The notes below the pieces were generated by a model. The model did no database searches. It was given only the letters and a program-made list of their open reading frames with translations, and was not told the origin of the DNA. Positions 1 to 41,898 of a stretch of 64,000 nt of DNA are shown here, in pieces. The position numbers and the translations under genes are program-made. Source of the stretch: Methylococcus mesophilus (GTDB lineage Bacteria; Pseudomonadota; Gammaproteobacteria; Methylococcales; Methylococcaceae); assembly GCF_026247885.1 (NCBI RefSeq), contig NZ_CP110921.1, forward strand, positions 3,541,501 through 3,605,500, read 5' to 3'. The stretch's first letter is position 1, and the number at the start of each line of letters is the position of its first letter.

Positions 1-332
1 GCGGCCACATCCGCGAGCAGCGAGCCTTCCGCAAATTGGCGCATCTTCACCGCGTATTCGAACGGGGAGCCTTCGCCTTCGATGCGGGGCGTTTGCGGCG
101 AACCGGCGATCGGACAGACGGCGAGATAGATTTCGGGCGCAAGCCTCCGGTTCAGCCTGAGTTCCTCCTCGCAGAAGCGCAGCCTCAGTTCGAGGGTGGA
201 GAAGTCGAGGAATCCGAAATCGACGGGTTTCTTGACCTTGTAGGCATAGGTTCCGGTCAGGAACACCCAGGAAATATGGGTTTCGATCAGGCGGATGTCG
301 GAAACCGGGTGCGGATAGGCCTCGGCGGTCAT
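1..332 (-). CDS. APH-like/AAA kinase family protein (COG2187-like), N-terminal part
   Basis: The reading frame starts at an ATG at 332 and runs off the left edge, so only about 110 N-terminal residues are visible. They contain the block YAYKVKKPVDFGFLDFSTLE followed by a region with RLAPEIYL, which I recognise from the bifunctional aminoglycoside-phosphotransferase-like / P-loop kinase proteins (COG2187 plus COG0645). Members are predicted small-molecule kinases of unknown substrate. The gene lies 34 nt downstream of rnd on the same strand and is probably cotranscribed with it. An earlier ATG that overlaps the rnd stop codon closes after 12 codons, so I prefer the ATG at 332. The exact function is unknown. 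Confidence 0.7.
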   Translation of the reverse strand, partial: MTAEAYPHPVSDIRLIETHISWVFLTGTYAYKVKKPVDFGFLDFSTLELRLRFCEEELRLNRRLAPEIYLAVCPIAGSPQTPRIEGEGSPFEYAVKMRQFAEGSLLADVA

Positions 333-33083: not shown

Positions 33084-33578
33084 ATGAGCCAGTCTGTAGA
33101 GCAGAAAGACAGCGGGTTGTCGAGCAAGGCCATGCGCGTTCTCGCCGTCGTGATGGCGGTGCTCGCGGTCATCTATTTCCTCCCGGCATTCATGTCGAGA
33201 ACCGCGGAAATCAATGGGGTGACCAAGGCTGCGGCATACAAGTCCGCGATGAAGGTCAAGCGCTACCTGTCGACCAACGATCGCGTGATCTTCGATACGG
33301 CGTTCGGCCTCCTCGACAAGATCAAGTCGCAGGAGGGGCCGGACGCCTTCGCCAAGGCGGTGGACGGTATGACGCCCGAAGAGGTCATCGAACTGGCAAG
33401 GACTGCGGTCAACGCTAGGATCGCGGCGGGTGATCCGGAGTTCAGGCAGTACGCTTCCTGGGACGACATGATTGCGAAGCTGGTGGATACCAGCCTCGGT
33501 TCCTCGCGTTCACGCCAGGGCGCAGGGCAGCAGCCGGCGCCGCTGCGCCAGTCGGAGCGTCCCGGCCGTCCGCAGTGA
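33084..33578 (+). CDS. Single-pass membrane protein of unknown function, cotranscribed with zur
   Basis: A 164-residue protein. One membrane segment (residues about 17-36, MRVLAVVMAVLAVIYFLPAF) is followed by a soluble helical region and a Gln/Pro/Arg-rich tail. I do not recognise a named family. GGAGAAA precedes the ATG. Its stop overlaps the zur start by 4 nt, so the two are translationally coupled. Confidence 0.8.
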   Translation: MSQSVEQKDSGLSSKAMRVLAVVMAVLAVIYFLPAFMSRTAEINGVTKAAAYKSAMKVKRYLSTNDRVIFDTAFGLLDKIKSQEGPDAFAKAVDGMTPEEVIELARTAVNARIAAGDPEFRQYASWDDMIAKLVDTSLGSSRSRQGAGQQPAPLRQSERPGRPQ

Positions 33579-34093
33579 GTTTCGGAGGGACCTTGACAGC
33601 GGACGTGGCCACGCTCACGCCGGTCGGCGGCCACGACCATCAGGGGTGCATAGATCGCGCCCTGGGCCGTGCCGAAAAACTCTGCAGCGAGCGCGGGGTG
33701 CGCTTCACGCCGCTGCGGCGCAAAGTGCTCGCGCTGATCTGGGAAAACCACGAGGCGGTCAAGGCTTACGACCTGCTCGAACTGCTCAAGTCGTTCGATC
33801 CGTCGGCCAAGCCCGCAACCGTATACCGGGCGCTGGATTTCCTGCTGGAGCAGGGCTTCATCCACCGCGTCGAGAGCCTCAATGCCTTCATCGGCTGCAG
33901 TGACGTGGGACGCCAGCACGAGCTCCTGCTGCTGATCTGCGACCGCTGTCATACGGTCGAAGAGCGTGCCGCCTCATCCGTCATGGCCGCCGTGGCTGCG
34001 GAAATCGCCTCGGCCGGTTTTCGCGTTCGCTACAAGGCGCTGGAAATACACGGCATTTGCACGGCTTGCGCGGCGCAAGAACCTTCCTTTTGA
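33575..34093 (+). CDS. zur: Fur-family regulator, probably Zur
   Basis: A 172-residue zinc uptake regulator candidate. It has a winged-helix domain (residues about 40-105, with AKPATVYRALDFLLEQGF as recognition region) and a C-terminal metal/dimer domain. Two structural-zinc pairs are visible: C122-x-x-C125 and C162-x-x-C165. I choose Zur over Fur because the next operon is a zinc-starvation set with a Zur-type operator. The GTG start overlaps the upstream stop. Confidence 0.88.
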   Translation: MSFGGTLTADVATLTPVGGHDHQGCIDRALGRAEKLCSERGVRFTPLRRKVLALIWENHEAVKAYDLLELLKSFDPSAKPATVYRALDFLLEQGFIHRVESLNAFIGCSDVGRQHELLLLICDRCHTVEERAASSVMAAVAAEIASAGFRVRYKALEIHGICTACAAQEPSF

Positions 34094-34162
34094 GTTTTTC
34101 CGGAATTCCTGCCTGACCACTGGTGCGGGTTGCGGCATCGTCCTGGCGCGACAAGGGTCGGC

Positions 34163-34192
34163 TTGTTTTTGTTACTTTATAACATATATAAT
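34163..34192 (+). promoter_or_regulatory. Promoter with overlapping candidate Zur operator
   Basis: TTGTTT (34163-34168), an 18-nt spacer and TATAAT (34187-34192) form a promoter in an AT-rich island. Between them lies TGTTACTTTATAACA (34170-34184), an imperfect dyad with one mismatch that resembles proteobacterial Zur boxes. Zinc-loaded Zur here would block RNA polymerase for the operon starting at 34320. Confidence 0.65.
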
Positions 34193-34319
34193 TTCGCCCG
34201 CTGCTAGAGCTGCTCTTCGGGTTGGCTGCGAGTGTTTGCCGGAACATAAGGGAGCGGATGGCGCGAGACGAGTGACGATATAACATCATTGCTGATCCAA
34301 GAAAGGTTCAGGAAGCATC

Positions 34320-36449
34320 ATGCTCAAACGATTTTCCCTGTCTTTGTGCTCCATTGCGTTAGCGGCGCCGATCCATGCCGCCGAGGTTTCCGAGCCAGCG
34401 GGCAAGCGGGTCCCTAGCGAGAAGGATCAGCCCGCCGCCGGTGTGGAGCCGGCTCCTGTGCAGCTCGAACCGGTCGTCATCAGCAGTCCGTTGGAAGAAA
34501 GGGTCTCCGAAATGGCGCGGCCGGTGACCGTGCTGACGGGCAGCGAATTGCGCCGGAAGATTGGGGGCACGATCGGTGAAACCCTCAAGCAGGAAGCCGG
34601 CGTGACCAGCGAATCCTTCGGTCCGGGCGTAGGCATACCGGTGATCCGGGGACAGACGGGGCCACGTGTCCAGGTTATGACCAACAGCATAGGCACCGGC
34701 GACGTGTCGCAGATCAGCCCGGACCATGCCAATGCGGTGGAACCGGTGCTGGCCGACCGCGTGGAAGTACTGCGCGGTCCGGCGACTCTGCTGTACGGCA
34801 GCGGGGCGATCGGCGGCATCGTCAACGTCCTCGACAACCGCATTCCCTCGCTGGTGCCGGACAAACTGATGACGGCGACCGGGGAACAGCGGTTCAACTC
34901 GGTCTCGGGCCAGACCACGACCAATCTCAAGGTAGAGGGCGGCCAGGATCTGGTGTCCTATCATCTGGACGGCTTTTACCGCGATGGCAACAATCTGCAC
35001 ATCGGCGGTCCGGCGATCGCCGAGACTCAGGCGCGCCAGACCGACCTGGCTTTGCAAGGCAGCCCGATTCAGAATTCCTACGGCGTCATCCCCAACACCG
35101 AAAATCGGGCCAAGGGCGGTTCTGCCGGTTTTTCCCTCGTGGGCGAGCCGGGCTTCGCCGGGGTGTCGATCAACTATCTCGGCAACAACTACGGCATTCC
35201 GCCCGATGGCTCGCCTGGCGCGGGTGACACCCGGATCAACCTCAAGGAGTCGCGCTACGATTTCAAGAGCGAGCTGAACGCCCCGGTGGATTTCGTCGAG
35301 ACCGTGCGCATGCGCTTCGGCCACATCAATTACACCCACACCGAGCTGGACGACAGCGTGGCGGCCGCCCGTTTCAACAAGACGACCAACGAAGGCCGTC
35401 TGGAAGTTGTGCATCAGCCCATCGGCATCGTGAAGGGTGTCGTTGGGGTACAGATGAGTTCGGCCGATTTCGAGGCGATCGAAATCGGCTCCCCTGACGC
35501 GCTGGTGCCCAAATCGCAGCTCGGCAGCTACGGCGTGTTCGCGGTCGAATCCTTCGAGCTCGGCGCGGGGCTCTATGAGCTGGGACTCCGAGGAGAATCC
35601 GATTCCGTCGACCCGCAAGGCGGCCCCAACCGCAGTTATGCGCCGATCAGCGCCTCCGGCTCCGGGCAGTGGAAGCTCGACGACGAACACACCGTCAGCT
35701 TCGCCGCGACCCGCTCGCAGCGGGCGCCCCAGGTGCAGGAGCTGTTCACCGACGGCGTGCACGATGCCACTCACAGCTACGAGCTGGGCGATCCCAATCT
35801 CATTGAGGAGACCTCCTACAACTTCGACTGGGGCTACCGCTACAAGAGCCATGGCATCAGCGCCGAGCTCAACGTGTTCCAGAATTTCGTGAACGACTAC
35901 ATCTACCAGCAGATCACGGATGAGGTGTTCAACGAAGATACCGAACAGTTCGAGAACGCGTGCACGAGTCCGGGCGCCTGTTTCCCGGTAGTGCAGACCA
36001 CTCAGGCCGGCGCGTATTTCCTGGGCTATGAAGGCAACGTCAAATTTCCGCTGATGGAGAACCATTACGGCGTGATCGACCTGACCCTGTTCAGCGACTT
36101 CACCCGCGGCCAGTTCGTCAACGGCGGCAACGTGCCGCGCATGCCGCCGCTGCGCTACGGCTTCCAGCTCGACTATGCCTACGACGAGCACTGGAGCAGC
36201 AATCTGCGGCTGACTCGCGGTGAGAAGCAGATCTATGCCGGCCAGAACGATGCCATGACCAACGGCTACGTGCTGCTCAACCTGGGTGTGCAGTACGAGG
36301 TCAAGGCATTCAAGGACGCCGACGTGCTGGTCTTCGCTCAAGGCAACAACCTGCTCAACGACAACATCCGAAACTCCACCTCCTACCTGCGCTATTTCGC
36401 GCCGGAGGCGGGGCGCGGGGCGGAGTTGGGCATACGGATCACCTACTAG
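34320..36449 (+). CDS. TonB-dependent outer-membrane receptor, ZnuD-like
   Basis: A 709-residue protein with a signal peptide ending near PIHA, a plug domain (about residues 55-165; [20 protein letters not shown]) and a C-terminal beta barrel ending in an aromatic-terminal strand (ELGIRITY). A Cys pair, CTSPGAC, lies in an extracellular-type loop. The Zur-type operator upstream and the COG0523 gene downstream point to zinc or zinc-complex import. Substrate is inferred from context. Confidence 0.88.
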
Positions 36450-36474
36450 GAAGTGCAGAAGCGGCAGAATCCCC

Positions 36475-37704
36475 ATGAATGAGAATTCGCAAATTGACGG
36501 GCGGAGCAAGCTCCCGGTTACGGTGCTGTCCGGTTTTCTTGGCGCCGGGAAGACGACGCTGCTCAACTACATACTCGCCAACCGGGAAAACCGCAAGGTG
36601 GCGGTCATCGTCAACGACATGAGCGAGGTCAACGTCGACGCTGCCCTGATCCGTAGCGAAGTCCAGCTCAACCGGGCAGAGGAAAAACTGGTTGAGATGA
36701 GCAATGGCTGCATTTGCTGCACCCTGCGCGAAGATCTGTTGATCGAAGTGGGGCGCATGGCGCGTGAGGGGCGTTTCGATTACCTGGTTATAGAGTCCAC
36801 CGGCATCGCCGAACCTCTGCCCGTCGCGGAAACCTTCACTTTCCGCGATGAAGACGGCGCCAGCCTGTCCGACGTTGCCCGTCTGGACACTCTGGTGACA
36901 GTGGTGGATGCCGTCAACTTCATGCCCAACTATATGGAAGCTCTCAGCTTGAAGGAGAGCGGCGAGTCCCTGGGCGAGGACGACGAGCGCAACGTCGCCG
37001 ATCTCCTCGTCGACCAGATCGAGTTCAGCAATGTGATTCTGATCAGCAAGACCGATCTCATCGGGCGCGACGAACTGGCCAACCTCACAGGAATCCTGCA
37101 CAGCCTCAATCCCACAGCCGAGATTCTGCCCATGGTGATGGGGCAGGTGGCGCTGGACAAGGTCTTGAATACCCGCCGGTTCGATTTTGCGCAAGCCGAA
37201 ATGGCGCCCGGCTGGCTCAAGGAACTGCGGGGCGAGCACACACCGGAGACCGAGGAGTATGGGATTGCCAGCTTCGTTTACCAGGCCCGCCGTCCATTTC
37301 ACCCTCAGCGCTTTTTCGATTATCTGTACGGCGAGAACTGGAGCAGCGGTATTTTCCTCCGCTCCAAGGGATTCTTTTGGCTCGCTTCGCGTCCTGAGTG
37401 GGCGGGCTCCTGGTCGCAGGCCGGCGGCATCATGCACCACGGTTGTGCCGGGCGCTGGTGGGCCGCGGTACCGCGCCGCGACTGGCCGGAAGGACTGGAA
37501 TCGCATATCGCCGAGGACTGGCTGGAGCCCTACGGCGACTGCCGGCAGGAACTGGTCTTCATCGGGCAGAACGTGGATTCAGGCCAGGTCTGTAGCAGCC
37601 TTGACGCCTGCCTGCTGACGGATGAAGAACTGGCCGGAGGTCTTGGACGTTGGCGCAGCTATCCCGATCCTTTTCCCTCCTGGCTGCCGGGGGATGCGGC
37701 ATGA
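36475..37704 (+). CDS. COG0523 G3E GTPase, zinc-linked (ZigA-like) metallochaperone
   Basis: A 409-residue GTPase: Walker [10 protein letters not shown] near residues 20-28, the metal-binding GCICC at 78-82, ESTGIAEP and a C-terminal CobW_C domain. Members linked to zinc starvation are thought to deliver scarce zinc to client enzymes. The ATG at 36475 is 25 nt after the receptor stop; the open frame extends upstream but out of family. It overlaps the DUF1826 gene by 4 nt. Confidence 0.92.
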
Positions 37705-38369
37705 CGGCGCTTGCCTCCTTGTCCTATACCGCGGACGGTCCACACGCTGTGCTTTCGGACGATTTCGCTGATCTGGCGTGCATCTACCAGCCGGACGTCA
37801 ATCTCTGCCTGATCCGGCGCGAGCCCGAGCCGGCGATCGAGCGCTTCGTGGGCGAACTGCTGAAGCGCGGGGACGCAATCGAATCGTCGCAGGCGTTGTC
37901 CTTCGAGCATTTCGATTTTTCCTCGCTGCTGCCCCGGTACCGGGAGCTGGAGGGCCACGATTCATGGTGGCGGGACGTCGCCCGGCTCACCGCGGCCTTC
38001 TGCGACCTGTTCGAAACCGGCTCGGTTGGGCTGCGTCTGCGCACGCTGAACCAGGCCATGTGTCCGCGCTTCCATGTTGATTTCGTACCCTGCCGGCTGG
38101 TGTGCACCTACGGTGGGTTGGGGACCGAGTGGCTGGCGGACGACGAGGTCGACCGCAGCAAGCTGGGGCTGGCCGGTTCGAAAGGCTTGGCCGACGAGGA
38201 TTCCGGGCTGATTCTCGGCGGCGTGCGCGCCATGCCCGCCCATGCCGTCGCCCTGATGAAGGGCGCCACCTGGGCGGGGAGGGACTATCCCGGCGTCGTG
38301 CATCGCTCCCCCAGGCCAACGTCCGAACATCCGCGCCGTCTGCTGTTGACCCTGGACCTAGTCCTATAG
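37701..38369 (+). CDS. DUF1826 protein
   Basis: A 222-residue protein with features I associate with DUF1826, such as [18 protein letters not shown] and [12 protein letters not shown]. The function is unknown; homologues are often found beside COG0523 and Zur-controlled genes. The Cys/His cluster in the quoted segment could bind metal. The start is the ATG overlapping the upstream stop. Confidence 0.82.
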
Positions 38370-38384
38370 CAGGAGGGTTGCAGC

Positions 38385-40103
38385 GTGCTGATCAAGCTTG
38401 CAGGCGCGTCCGTCTACGACCCGGTGCAGGGTTGGGCGGGGGAGATCCGCGATCTGTACCTCCGGGATGGGTGCGTCGCCGCCGACCCGGGGCCCGATGC
38501 CACAGTCGATGAGGTGCACGACCTTTCGGGCCATATCCTCATGGCCGGAGCGATCGACATCCACAGCCATATTGCCGGCGGCAATGTGAACACGGCGAGG
38601 GTGCTTCTGCCGGAGCAGCATCGGAACTCGATGGCGCGGTGGCTGAACCCTCCGGAGCTCACGCCGTCCATGGGATTCGTCCCTTCGGGGCTTGCTTTGC
38701 GGTCCCAGTTGGCTCCCGCCGGATTTGTCAGTACGGCCAAATGGTCGAGCGCCGACATCGGCCACCGTTACGCCCGGATGGGGTATACCACCGTGGTCGA
38801 GCCGGCGGTGCTGCCGGCCAACGCCCTGGACGCCCATCTGCAGATGGCCGACATTCCCATCGTCGACACGGCGGGCCTGGCCATCCTGGGCAGCGACGAT
38901 TTTCTGCTGGGATTGCTGCGCGACAAGGCCAGCCAGGCGCAGGTCAACGACTACGTGGCATGGACGCTGCGTGCCACCCGCTGCCTGGGACTCAAGGTGA
39001 TCAATGCCGGCGGGGCCGCGGCCTTCAAATGGAACGTGCGCCAGTTCGATCTGGACGATGTGGTGCCGTATTACGGTGTCAGCTCCCGCCAAATCCTGCA
39101 AACGCTGCAGCGGGCCGTGTGCGAGCTGGGCATCCCGCATCCCGTGCACGTCCACTGCAACAATCTGGGTGTGCCGGGCAACGTGGAAACCGCTGTCGCT
39201 ACCATGGAGGCTGCGCAGGGCTTGCCCATGCATCTGGCGCACGTCCAGTTCTACGGTTACGGCAAGGAGGGCGCCAAGGGTTTTTCCTCGGGCGCGGCGC
39301 GTCTGATGGAGGCTTTCCACCGCCACCCCAACATCACCATGGATGTGGGTCAGGTGCTGTTCGGGCAGACGGTGACCGTTTCTGGCGACGTGATCGCGCA
39401 GTACAGCCGCCGCGGCGACGCCAGCCCCAGCAAATGGGTGGTGTGGGAGGCCGAGTGCGACGGCGCCGGCGGGGTGGTGCCTTACCGGTACCGGGAGCGG
39501 AGTTTCGTCAACACCCTGCAGTGGGCCGTCGGTCTCGAGATTTTCCTGCTGGCGGAAGACCCCTGGCGGCTGTTTTTCACCACCGATCATCCTAACGGCG
39601 CGCCTTTCACCGCCTATCCGGAACTGATCCGCTTGCTGATGGACGCCGACTACCGTGCATCAGTCATGGCCCGGCTCGATCAGGAGGCGCTGGCCTTGAC
39701 GCTTTTGCCGCACCTGCGCCGGGAGTTTTCCCTCCATGACGTTGCGGTCATGACACGGGCGGCGGCGGCGCGTCTTCTGGGTTTGGAAGACCGTGGCCAC
39801 CTGTGTTCCGGCGCCATTGCCGATGTCGCGGTCTACCGGCCCCAGGCGGACAAGCGGGCGATGTTCGCCGATGCGGCGTGGGTATGGAAAGGTGGAAGAC
39901 TCGTGGTTCGCGAGGGCGCCGTGGTCGATCGCCCAGCGGGTTCGGCGCTGACTATCGAGCCTTGCTACGACAGGCGCATCGAGCGCGACGTCAAAGCCTA
40001 TTTCGATCGCTTCTACAGCCTGTCGCTGGACCATTTCACCGTGGGCGGCGTGGCTTTCGAACGCGAAGATGCCGAGCGTTTCCGCTCGATTCGGGCGGCA
40101 TGA
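38385..40103 (+). CDS. Formylmethanofuran dehydrogenase / formyltransferase-hydrolase subunit A-like amidohydrolase
   Basis: A 572-residue protein starting [20 protein letters not shown], as in FmdA/FwdA/FhcA. FhcA hydrolyses formyl-methanofuran to formate in the methanopterin C1 pathway and holds a binuclear zinc site. Candidate ligands are all present: H60 and H62 (DIHSHIAGG), a lysine near 204, H255/H257, H286 and D401 (FTTDHPNG). Subunits B, C and D are not adjacent. It lies 15 nt after DUF1826 and just before folE2, inside a predicted zinc-starvation operon, so it may be a paralogue of the main FhcA. Whether a second copy exists cannot be seen here. Confidence 0.85.
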
Positions 40104-40159
40104 GAACTCCTGACGCACGGCGGGGCCCCCGTGGATTTCAAAACGATCGAGGACGAGGC

Positions 40160-40966
40160 ATGGAGGAGGAAGGCTTGGCCATCGACGACGTGCAAGGCCG
40201 AGCGGACCTGCGCCGCATAGACATCGACAGGGTCGGGATCAAGGGCATTCGCCATCCGGTGAGGGTCCGGGATCGAAGTCCGGGCGAACAGCACACTGTC
40301 GCCCGTTTCGACATGGCGGTGAGTCTGCCGCACCATTTCAAGGGGACCCACATGTCGCGCTTCGTGGAGATCATTAATGGCCACGACCGCGAGATCGACA
40401 TCGACTCCTTCGAGGCGATGCTGGCGGAAATGGTGGAGCGCCTGAACGCCGAGGCGGGTCACATCGAAATGCGTTTTCCCTATTTTCTGGAAAAACGGGC
40501 GCCGGTGACAGGCGTCAGGAGTCTCATGGATTACGAGGTCGCCCTGATTGGCGAAGTTTCCGGCGCCGCAACGACGACATGGCTTAGTGTGACCGTGCCG
40601 GTCACCAGCCTGTGCCCTTGTTCCAAGGCAATTTCCGAACGCGGCGCCCACAACCAGCGCTCTCATGTCACGGCCGCCGTGCGCATGCGTGATTTCGTGT
40701 GGATCGAAGAGCTGATCGAGTGGGTGGAGGCAGAGGCTTCTTCGCCGATTTACGATCTCCTGAAACGTCCCGACGAAAAGTACGTCACCGAATACGCCTA
40801 TGACCATCCCCGCTTCGTCGAGGATCTGGTACGCGGTGTGGCCGCCCGTTTGGACGCCGAACCGCGTGTCGCGGCATACGCGGTCGAGGTGGAGAATTTC
40901 GAGTCCATCCACAATCATTCGGCCTCCGCGCTGATCGAGCGTGACAAGGGGATGGCGGCCGCTTGA
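40160..40966 (+). CDS. folE2: GTP cyclohydrolase IB (zinc-independent type)
   Basis: A 268-residue enzyme that makes dihydroneopterin triphosphate from GTP, the first step of folate and methanopterin synthesis. The motif [20 protein letters not shown] at about 149-168 holds the active-site Cys and His. FolE2 replaces zinc-dependent FolE when zinc is scarce in several bacteria, which agrees with its position here. I choose ATG 40160, after GAGGACGAGG; an ATG at 40100 overlapping the previous stop would add 20 residues without family similarity. Confidence 0.93.
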
Positions 40967-41061
40967 GGCCCTCCCTCCGCCGCTGACGGCCTCGAATTCA
41001 CTGGTACGGGAACCGACGCGATCGAATAGAATGGCGGGCCAAAAATCGCCCGGACCGTTCC

Positions 41062-41898
41062 ATGAACCGATTGCATGCTTCGCTCGCCCTGGATCGCCCC
41101 CTGATCATGGGCATCCTCAACGTCACCCCCGACAGTTTCTCCGACGGCGGCCTGTACGACGACGTCGAGCAGGCCGTCCGCCGCGGCGTCTTCATGGCGG
41201 GAGAGGGCGCCGACGTGATCGACGTGGGCGGGGAGTCGACCCGGCCGGGGGCGGAACCGGTCCAGGCCGCGGTCCAGATCGCACGTGTGGTTCCGGTCAT
41301 CGAGCGCCTGCGGGTGCTGCTGCCCGAGCGGGTGGCGATCAGCATCGATACCACCCAAGCGGAAGTGGCGCGCTCGGCCCTGGCCGCCGGTGCGGACCTG
41401 ATCAATGACGTTTCGGCCGGTCGGGACGATCCGGCCATGTTGTCGCTCGCGGCGGCGGATGGAGTGCCGATCGTGCTGATGCACATGCAGGGTAGCCCTA
41501 AGACCATGCAGGAGCGGCCGCATTACGACGACGTCGTGGGCGAAGTGTTGGAATTCTTGCTGGAGCGGTCGGAGGCGGCCGGGCGCGCCGGCGTCCCGCG
41601 CGAATCCATCCTGTTCGATCCCGGCATCGGCTTCGGCAAGCGCCGGGACGACAATCTGAAGCTGATGGCCCATCTGGACCGCTTCGTCGCAATGGGTTAC
41701 CCGGTGTTGTTGGGCACCAGCCGGAAGCGCTTCATGGGAGCGGTCTGCGGCGAAACCGAGCCGGCGGCCCTGGTGCCGGCGACGGTGGCGACCACCGCGC
41801 TGGGCGTTTCAGCGGGGGTGCGGCTGTTTCGGGTTCACGACGTGAAGGAAAACCGGCAGGCGGCGGATGTCGCGGCCGCGATCCGCCGCGCGCGGTAG
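41062..41898 (+). CDS. folP: Dihydropteroate synthase
   Basis: The 278-residue TIM-barrel enzyme condenses pterin pyrophosphate with p-aminobenzoate. MGILNVTPDSFSDGG near residues 16-30, DVGGESTRPGA and the C-terminal LLGTSRKRFMG are diagnostic. It follows folE2 after 95 nt and precedes panD convergently. It is not next to ftsH-glmM as in E. coli. Confidence 0.95.
   Translation: MNRLHASLALDRPLIMGILNVTPDSFSDGGLYDDVEQAVRRGVFMAGEGADVIDVGGESTRPGAEPVQAAVQIARVVPVIERLRVLLPERVAISIDTTQAEVARSALAAGADLINDVSAGRDDPAMLSLAAADGVPIVLMHMQGSPKTMQERPHYDDVVGEVLEFLLERSEAAGRAGVPRESILFDPGIGFGKRRDDNLKLMAHLDRFVAMGYPVLLGTSRKRFMGAVCGETEPAALVPATVATTALGVSAGVRLFRVHDVKENRQAADVAAAIRRAR

Follow-up and report, generated by a model that had tools for sequence, protein, structure and literature searches.

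A second formylmethanofuran dehydrogenase subunit A gene in a predicted Zur-controlled operon of Methylococcus mesophilus and its relatives

Introduction

Spare copies of zinc enzymes whose genes are linked to Zur were described by Haas et al. (2009; PMC2770081), who list nine zinc-enzyme families with such paralogs (HisI, PyrC, Cam, HemB, CysRS, ThrRS, AmiA, QueD and DksA) and report FolE2 to be common in Zur-type operons; the word 'formylmethanofuran' is absent from their main text. The present work concerns a gene of comparable setting, that of FhcA2, a second subunit A of the formylmethanofuran dehydrogenase/formyltransferase-hydrolase complex, located on a stretch of 64,000 nucleotides of Methylococcus mesophilus (NZ_CP110921.1, positions 3541501-3605500 of a single-contig genome of 4.34 Mb), the whole of which is referred to as the window.

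FhcA2 is proposed to be a zinc-starvation isoform of FhcA under predicted Zur control, a reading to which a probability of roughly 0.7 is given on comparative grounds. The genome was found to possess two FhcA copies, and the FhcA2 proteins form one clade whose genes are linked to those of zinc starvation and to operator-like sites, with their metal ligands kept and with purifying selection evident.

Organization of the FhcA2 locus and its canonical counterpart

A genome search with the model TIGR03121 (cut-off 392.75 bits) identified two FhcA genes above the cut-off, namely canonical FhcA1 (2944463-2946067, 810.6 bits), which sits within an fhcB-fhcA-fhcD-fhcC cluster, and FhcA2 of the window (629.9 bits in this search, 632.6 bits in the profile match of the window gene), with the two proteins sharing 55% identity. 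The possibility that the window carries the only fhcA of the genome was thereby ruled out, and the second fhcA in a canonical cluster that had been sought by the original prediction (a reading of the window made before any database search) was located at another genome site. As a zinc-type FolE was also identified elsewhere, at 482714, both FhcA2 and FolE2 of the window are spares. The features of the locus, in window coordinates, are as follows.

33575-34093, + strand: zur-like regulator of the Fur family (PF01475; the best NCBIfam match is the Zur model, 158.5 bits, below its cut-off of 167)
34170-34184, no strand assigned: predicted operator of the Zur type, TGTTACTTTATAACA, with 135 nt between it and the downstream znuD
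34320-36449, + strand: ZnuD-like TonB-dependent receptor, whose gene opens the predicted operon (PF00593, PF07715)
36475-37704, + strand: COG0523 GTPase ZigA of the zinc metallochaperone family (NF038288, 663.2 bits, cut-off 600)
37701-38369, + strand: DUF1826 protein (PF08856, 211.9 bits)
38385-40103, + strand: FhcA2, second formylmethanofuran dehydrogenase/formyltransferase-hydrolase subunit A (TIGR03121)
40160-40966, + strand: FolE2, alternative GTP cyclohydrolase I (PF02649; NF010200, 296.2 bits, cut-off 215)

The run znuD-zigA-DUF1826-fhcA2-folE2 is compact and lies entirely on the + strand with gaps of 25, -4, 15 and 56 nt, so that the gene list and spacings given in the original prediction were borne out by profile matches and coordinates. 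ZigA, FhcA2 and FolE2 exceed their NCBIfam cut-offs; the zur-like and ZnuD-like products fall below theirs, although these are their best-matching models (for the receptor, NF038289 with 374.9 bits and an E value of 9.3e-112, below an 'exception' cut-off of 950). Over the whole genome PF02492 gave three matches (189, 80.3 and 22.3 bits), the best of them being the ZigA gene. An open reading frame at 33084-33578 had relatives in just three of the surveyed islands and was left out of the system, and a scan of 33400-41100 for consensus sigma-70 promoters gave no match.

Distribution and gene neighbourhood in the Methylococcales

Within the order Methylococcales, 301 genomes were surveyed and an FhcA match was obtained in 266. 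Among the matches listed, the FhcA2 class occupied 64 places in 61 of the 301 genomes with 69-100% identity to the window copy, other FhcA places being at most 58% identical to it, and 57 of these 61 genomes had more than one FhcA match. Sixty-three FhcA2 loci with flanks (L043-L105, 3.4 to 19.9 kb, the window's own place excluded) were compared to 30 canonical fhcA loci hand-picked from the same survey, 20 of which came from FhcA2-bearing genomes, with zinc markers and neighbouring fhcB, fhcC and fhcD being scored by tblastn. At least one zinc marker was present at 59 of the 63 FhcA2 loci and at least three kinds at 56, compared to none at the 30 canonical loci, counts that are not independent trials because the loci are related by descent and the controls were hand-picked. 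COG0523 was found at 57 of the 63 loci, DUF1826 at 55, ZIP at 46, FolE2 at 35, ZnuD at 32, Zur at 14, HisI at 14, QueD at 12, ThrRS at 10 and DksA at 4, with the ZIP, QueD, HisI, DksA and ThrRS families and two extra COG0523 types identified by Pfam/NCBIfam on one representative each. The survey in other methanotrophs suggested alongside the original prediction thus found the FhcA2 clade almost always with zinc-starvation genes and the examined canonical loci never.

FhcB, FhcC or FhcD was found to adjoin FhcA2 neither in the window nor at any of the 63 other loci, whereas canonical fhcA was accompanied by FhcD and FhcC at all 30 control loci and by FhcB at 29. At one canonical locus (L008, 10205-13237), read by eye, pmoC-, pmoA- and pmoB-like genes come next after fhcBADC in the same orientation.

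An extra COG0523 gene was found to abut FhcA2 at 28 of the 63 loci, on both sides at 15 of them, compared to 0/30 for canonical fhcA; the window is without one. Relative to the first position of the FhcA match, stop codons of the upstream COG0523 genes fall between 49 nt ahead of it and 6 nt past it. Among 17 loci from Methylophaga and outliers, a strict-motif search placed a COG0523 gene against FhcA2 in one only. The motif is too strict for Methylophaga, as tblastn gave a COG0523-like match just upstream of FhcA2 at most Methylophaga loci and the gene in Methylophaga aminisulfidivorans (L174) lies 6 nt upstream of fhcA2. To our knowledge, few targets of COG0523 metallochaperones are known, and this adjacency provides a concrete candidate client. 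It is tentatively suggested that, in zinc-starved methanotrophs and Methylophaga, FhcA2 might replace FhcA1 on FhcBCD, carrying either a metal other than zinc or one delivered to it by preference, and that the dedicated COG0523 GTPase encoded next to it in many genomes might load this metal.

Operator-like sites

The window operator was searched for across the whole genome as the pattern TGTTANNNTATAACA with at most one mismatch, the same pattern read backwards serving as control. Its single match was the window site (34170-34184), which on its own is not beyond chance as the backwards control matched twice (one forward, one reverse). Sites were also scored by their matches to a 22-base Zur consensus, against which the window operator reached only 14/22 and shuffles of the window 13-15. 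As by this measure it is no better than shuffles, weight was placed on its position, its relatives and the counts across the order. An identical operator core at the identical position was found at two other loci (L043 and L050), and two further loci of the same genus (L044 and L105) had no Zur-like site scoring 15 or more. The predicted operator of the window is supported by this position and conservation.

Across the order, Zur-like sites scoring at least 17/22 were present at 31 of the 63 FhcA2 loci, compared to 0/30 canonical fhcA loci and 0/63 shuffled FhcA2 loci (one shuffle per locus), and the exact Zur-like core in either orientation occurred at 40/63 FhcA2 loci and 0/30 canonical ones. 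Most Zur-like sites lie approximately 20-60 nt upstream of the zigA match or 65-400 nt upstream of the znuD match, with the tblastn match, rather than the start codon, as the end point of these distances.

Methylophaga and outlying relatives

A wider scan covering one genome per species (84,980 species) gave 159 confirmed relatives, the best 80 of which include Methylococcus capsulatus Texas, Methylotuvimicrobium buryatense 5G, several Methylomonas and Methylobacter, Crenothrix sp. D3 and Methylophaga. Zinc markers were present at 16 of the 17 loci from Methylophaga and outliers, and the Methylophaga FhcA2 was likewise found in a zinc island. In M. aminisulfidivorans (L174) the order of genes is dksA-like, zigA, DUF1826, zur-like, ABC ATPase, TonB receptor, two further genes, COG0523 and fhcA2, with the dksA and zur matches falling below their cut-offs. 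Another Methylophaga island (L164, 97-513) encodes a DksA-family protein with CxxT...CxxA replacing the four-cysteine zinc finger, which presumably resembles zinc-free DksA2.

A palindrome unlike the Methylococcales site, TGATAYGATATATCA (at most one mismatch), was identified at 15 places in five Methylophaga genomes, its backwards control giving none. It lies upstream of the dksA-zigA genes in all five, between zur and the ABC...COG0523-fhcA2 genes in two, and, as read by eye, near COG0523-like and znuC-like genes in two, one of which also has a HisI-like gene there, with the remaining sites preceding other genes.

Ten named genomes (six Methylophaga, M. buryatense, Filomicrobium, M. capsulatus Texas and Sedimenticola) were tested for the pathway and FhcD was present in all. 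Each of the nine with FhcA2 possesses two FhcA above the cut-off, the second being the higher-scoring, and Sedimenticola possesses one. This higher-scoring FhcA adjoins FhcD in seven of the nine and is 1.6 kb from it in M. buryatense. At seven Sedimenticola-type loci FhcB lies beside FhcA in every case and the sole zinc-type marker is QueD, at two. Sedimenticola-type genomes (L168, L169, L176, L180, L181 and L184) have FhcA directly behind FhcB with no adjacent FhcD or FhcC match, and in S. selenatireducens FhcD is about 14 kb from FhcA.

In a sample of 398 genomes from the phylum an FhcA match was found in 18, none more than 57% identical to FhcA2 besides that of the window's own genome, a sample that is thin as it showed no Methylophaga-like second copy. 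A contig from a metagenome-assembled genome (MAG) titled Methyloversatilis universalis (L117) was observed to carry a Methylococcales-type island with FhcA2 at 78% identity, and is possibly wrongly labelled or binned. Two Methylosinus loci (L189, 10001-13289; L192, 8344-11632) have two tandem fhcA genes inside an fhcB...fhcD-fhcC cluster.

Phylogeny and conservation of FhcA2

The main tree of 61 proteins was midpoint-rooted, with supports given as bootstrap/Shimodaira-Hasegawa-like approximate likelihood ratio test. The 25 Methylococcales FhcA2 rows (97/96) and the seven Methylophaga rows (100/100) were found to share one side of a branch supported at 100/99, with FhcA1, which contains canonical copies from the same kinds of organism, forming a separate group (100/100). 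From this grouping FhcA2 is considered a lineage of its own rather than a recent duplicate; its origin may lie in either duplication or transfer. A quick tree of 109 rows agrees on the FhcA2 grouping and adds to it, on long uncertain branches, proteins of Filomicrobium (L186) and of a gammaproteobacterium (L185), the latter with a HisI gene 140 nt upstream of its FhcA.

The six metal ligands of FhcA2 (H60, H62, K204, H257, H286 and D401; HxH, K, H, H, D) were assigned by aligning FhcA2 with the ligand pattern of dihydroorotase (PMC2770081), not from a structure of its own, and were invariant in 118 of 118 sequences compared. The original prediction of a back-up FhcA for zinc limitation is supported by the canonical gene elsewhere and the zinc linkage. 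The ligand comparison that it proposed refines it: the binuclear site is kept, and a copy made zinc-free by ligand loss is rejected, six of six ligands being present. Its interpretation of FhcA2 as a spare FhcA is supported on this comparative basis.

Positions conserved in canonical FhcA are largely retained, 117 of 140 being present in 90% or more of each of the two FhcA2 groups. Both groups are marked by six residues (Q15, F311, M319, A338, R342 and D345; weaker in the outliers), five of them within 311-345, and position A338 is R or K in 36 of 41 canonical sequences. The ratio of nonsynonymous to synonymous substitution (dN/dS), calculated from two within-genus pairs (G000, G017 and G003), was 0.14-0.18 for FhcA2 compared to 0.03 for FhcA1 in the same pairs; FhcA2 is thus under purifying selection in both. 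Synonymous divergence (dS) was lower for FhcA2 (0.10-0.22) than for FhcA1 (0.28-0.33), and this could reflect island exchange between members of the genus. The best relative with a solved structure was PDB 6s6y chain A (492.8 bits; 456.2 bits for FhcA1), and an AlphaFold model from a 23-sequence alignment was poor (mean predicted local distance difference test score, pLDDT, 59).

Proposed role and alternative explanations

FhcA is the subunit of the formyltransferase/hydrolase complex by which the formyl carrier is hydrolysed, giving formate, during methanopterin-linked formaldehyde oxidation. As zinc falls, Zur would leave the operator and the operon would be derepressed, with ZnuD (or ZIP-type transporters in other genomes) importing zinc and FolE2 and other spare enzymes substituting for zinc enzymes. 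FhcA2 would then replace or supplement FhcA1 using the shared FhcB, FhcC and FhcD, staying active through better zinc capture, loading by a COG0523 GTPase, or another metal. In this scheme binding by Zur, expression that depends on zinc, the joining of FhcA2 to FhcBCD and the route by which the metal demand is met are what we infer; another metal, tighter binding, GTPase-assisted loading or higher copy number could each be the basis for activity at low zinc. The link to pterin supply through FolE2 made by the original prediction is plausible, although FolE2 is a frequent member of such operons. If the scheme is true, the zinc-sparing response reaches beyond housekeeping enzymes into central one-carbon metabolism, and zinc supply is predicted to shape formaldehyde handling in methane oxidisers.

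A number of observations weigh against FhcA2 as a zinc-starvation isoform. Since all ligands are kept, the sequence offers no reason for a lower zinc need. No zinc neighbours were found at four of the 63 loci (L045, L080, L089 and L098) nor at L179; three of the four form one subclade, L080 being a cut copy that resembles it. ZigA is not constant either, as the near relative G017 is without a COG0523 match in the operon. A Methylophilaceae MAG (L182) has its FhcA next to zigA and DUF1826, yet the quick tree puts this protein on a long branch that is not part of the FhcA2 clade. FhcD lies far from the higher-scoring FhcA of Filomicrobium. As an observation on the four loci without zinc neighbours, they lie, as read by eye, near bioA-like or sulfate-assimilation-like genes, and three of the four genomes (G144, G179 and G169) also carry an island copy.

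It is unlikely, though it deserves weight, that FhcA2 has been repurposed as a binuclear amidohydrolase of the zinc-starvation response, acting on another substrate and no longer with FhcBCD. The 55% identity to FhcA1, the FhcA2-specific residues clustered within 311-345 and including A338, and the lack of FhcB, FhcC or FhcD beside any of the 63 loci are in its favour. So are the relatively greater amino-acid change in FhcA2, which fits a changed function, and two FhcA2-bearing MAGs (G227, 87% complete; G210, 89% complete) in which neither FhcD nor another FhcA was found; these last two observations also weigh against the zinc-starvation isoform. However, retention of the 117 canonical positions, a TIGR03121 score far above the cut-off and the occurrence of FhcA2 with the Fhc pathway (FhcD and another FhcA in nine of nine named genomes, more than one match in the 57 of 61 genomes of the order among the matches listed, and no close relative in the thin phylum sample) weigh against this reading. 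A possible, if somewhat doubtful, explanation that overlaps with the preferred one is that FhcA2 is an ordinary zinc FhcA overproduced in zinc shortage so that more sites compete for the metal, as would suit its full set of ligands and the higher copy number that Haas et al. (2009; PMC2770081) propose for ligand-keeping paralogs. A separate, well supported lineage speaks against this, as do the extra COG0523 genes abutting FhcA2 at 28 of 63 loci, which hint at special metal loading, the window itself having none.

That fhcA2 is a passenger of a mobile zinc island with no zinc-related role is very improbable. Its lineage differs from that of the host's FhcA1, its occurrence is patchy (61 of 301 genomes among the matches listed), and at least three copies are broken (G021 and G086 frameshifted, G146 with one internal stop), which also counts against the zinc-starvation isoform. 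In the window's family (38 genomes), moreover, DUF1826 at 50% identity or more was found without FhcA2 in eight genomes, in one case broken by a stop, so the zinc island can exist without it. Nevertheless, the linkage is kept across several families despite varied gene order and recurs in Methylophaga, where the operator is of a different type, and purifying selection was evident in both pairs tested. FhcA2 as a zinc-starvation isoform of FhcA is preferred.

Comparison with known Zur-linked paralogs

PyrC (dihydroorotase) presumably belongs to the same superfamily as FhcA, and FhcA2 resembles the PyrC paralog of Zur regulons in that both are of the amidohydrolase type and are encoded in similar operons. 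That PyrC paralog has lost its zinc ligands according to PMC2770081, whereas FhcA2 keeps all six, in this resembling the HisI, ThrRS and QueD paralogs described there; FhcA2 is thus not of the ligand-lost type of PyrC, HemB and DksA. Its ligands align with those of FhcA in the formyltransferase/hydrolase complex (PDB 6s6y chain A); unlike canonical FhcA, it is encoded apart from fhcB, fhcC and fhcD.

As with the Zur-linked paralogs of PMC2770081, FhcA2 is a second copy of a zinc enzyme with its canonical counterpart elsewhere, in an operon behind a predicted Zur-type operator together with COG0523, DUF1826, FolE2 and zinc-uptake genes, and some FhcA2 islands contain HisI-, ThrRS-, QueD- and DksA-family genes, families that are listed there. 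It differs from those paralogs in being a subunit of a C1-pathway enzyme absent from the list, in being seen only with the Fhc pathway save in the two incomplete MAGs, and in having extra COG0523 genes abutting it at 28 of the 63 loci. In agreement with the original prediction, which knew of no such link, searches of the open-licence PubMed Central (PMC) literature, which could miss a subscription paper, found no report linking fhcA to Zur or to zinc. As it is off the list in PMC2770081 and no description was found, FhcA2 appears to be a newly recognised Zur-linked spare zinc enzyme, one that would add central C1 metabolism to this known class.

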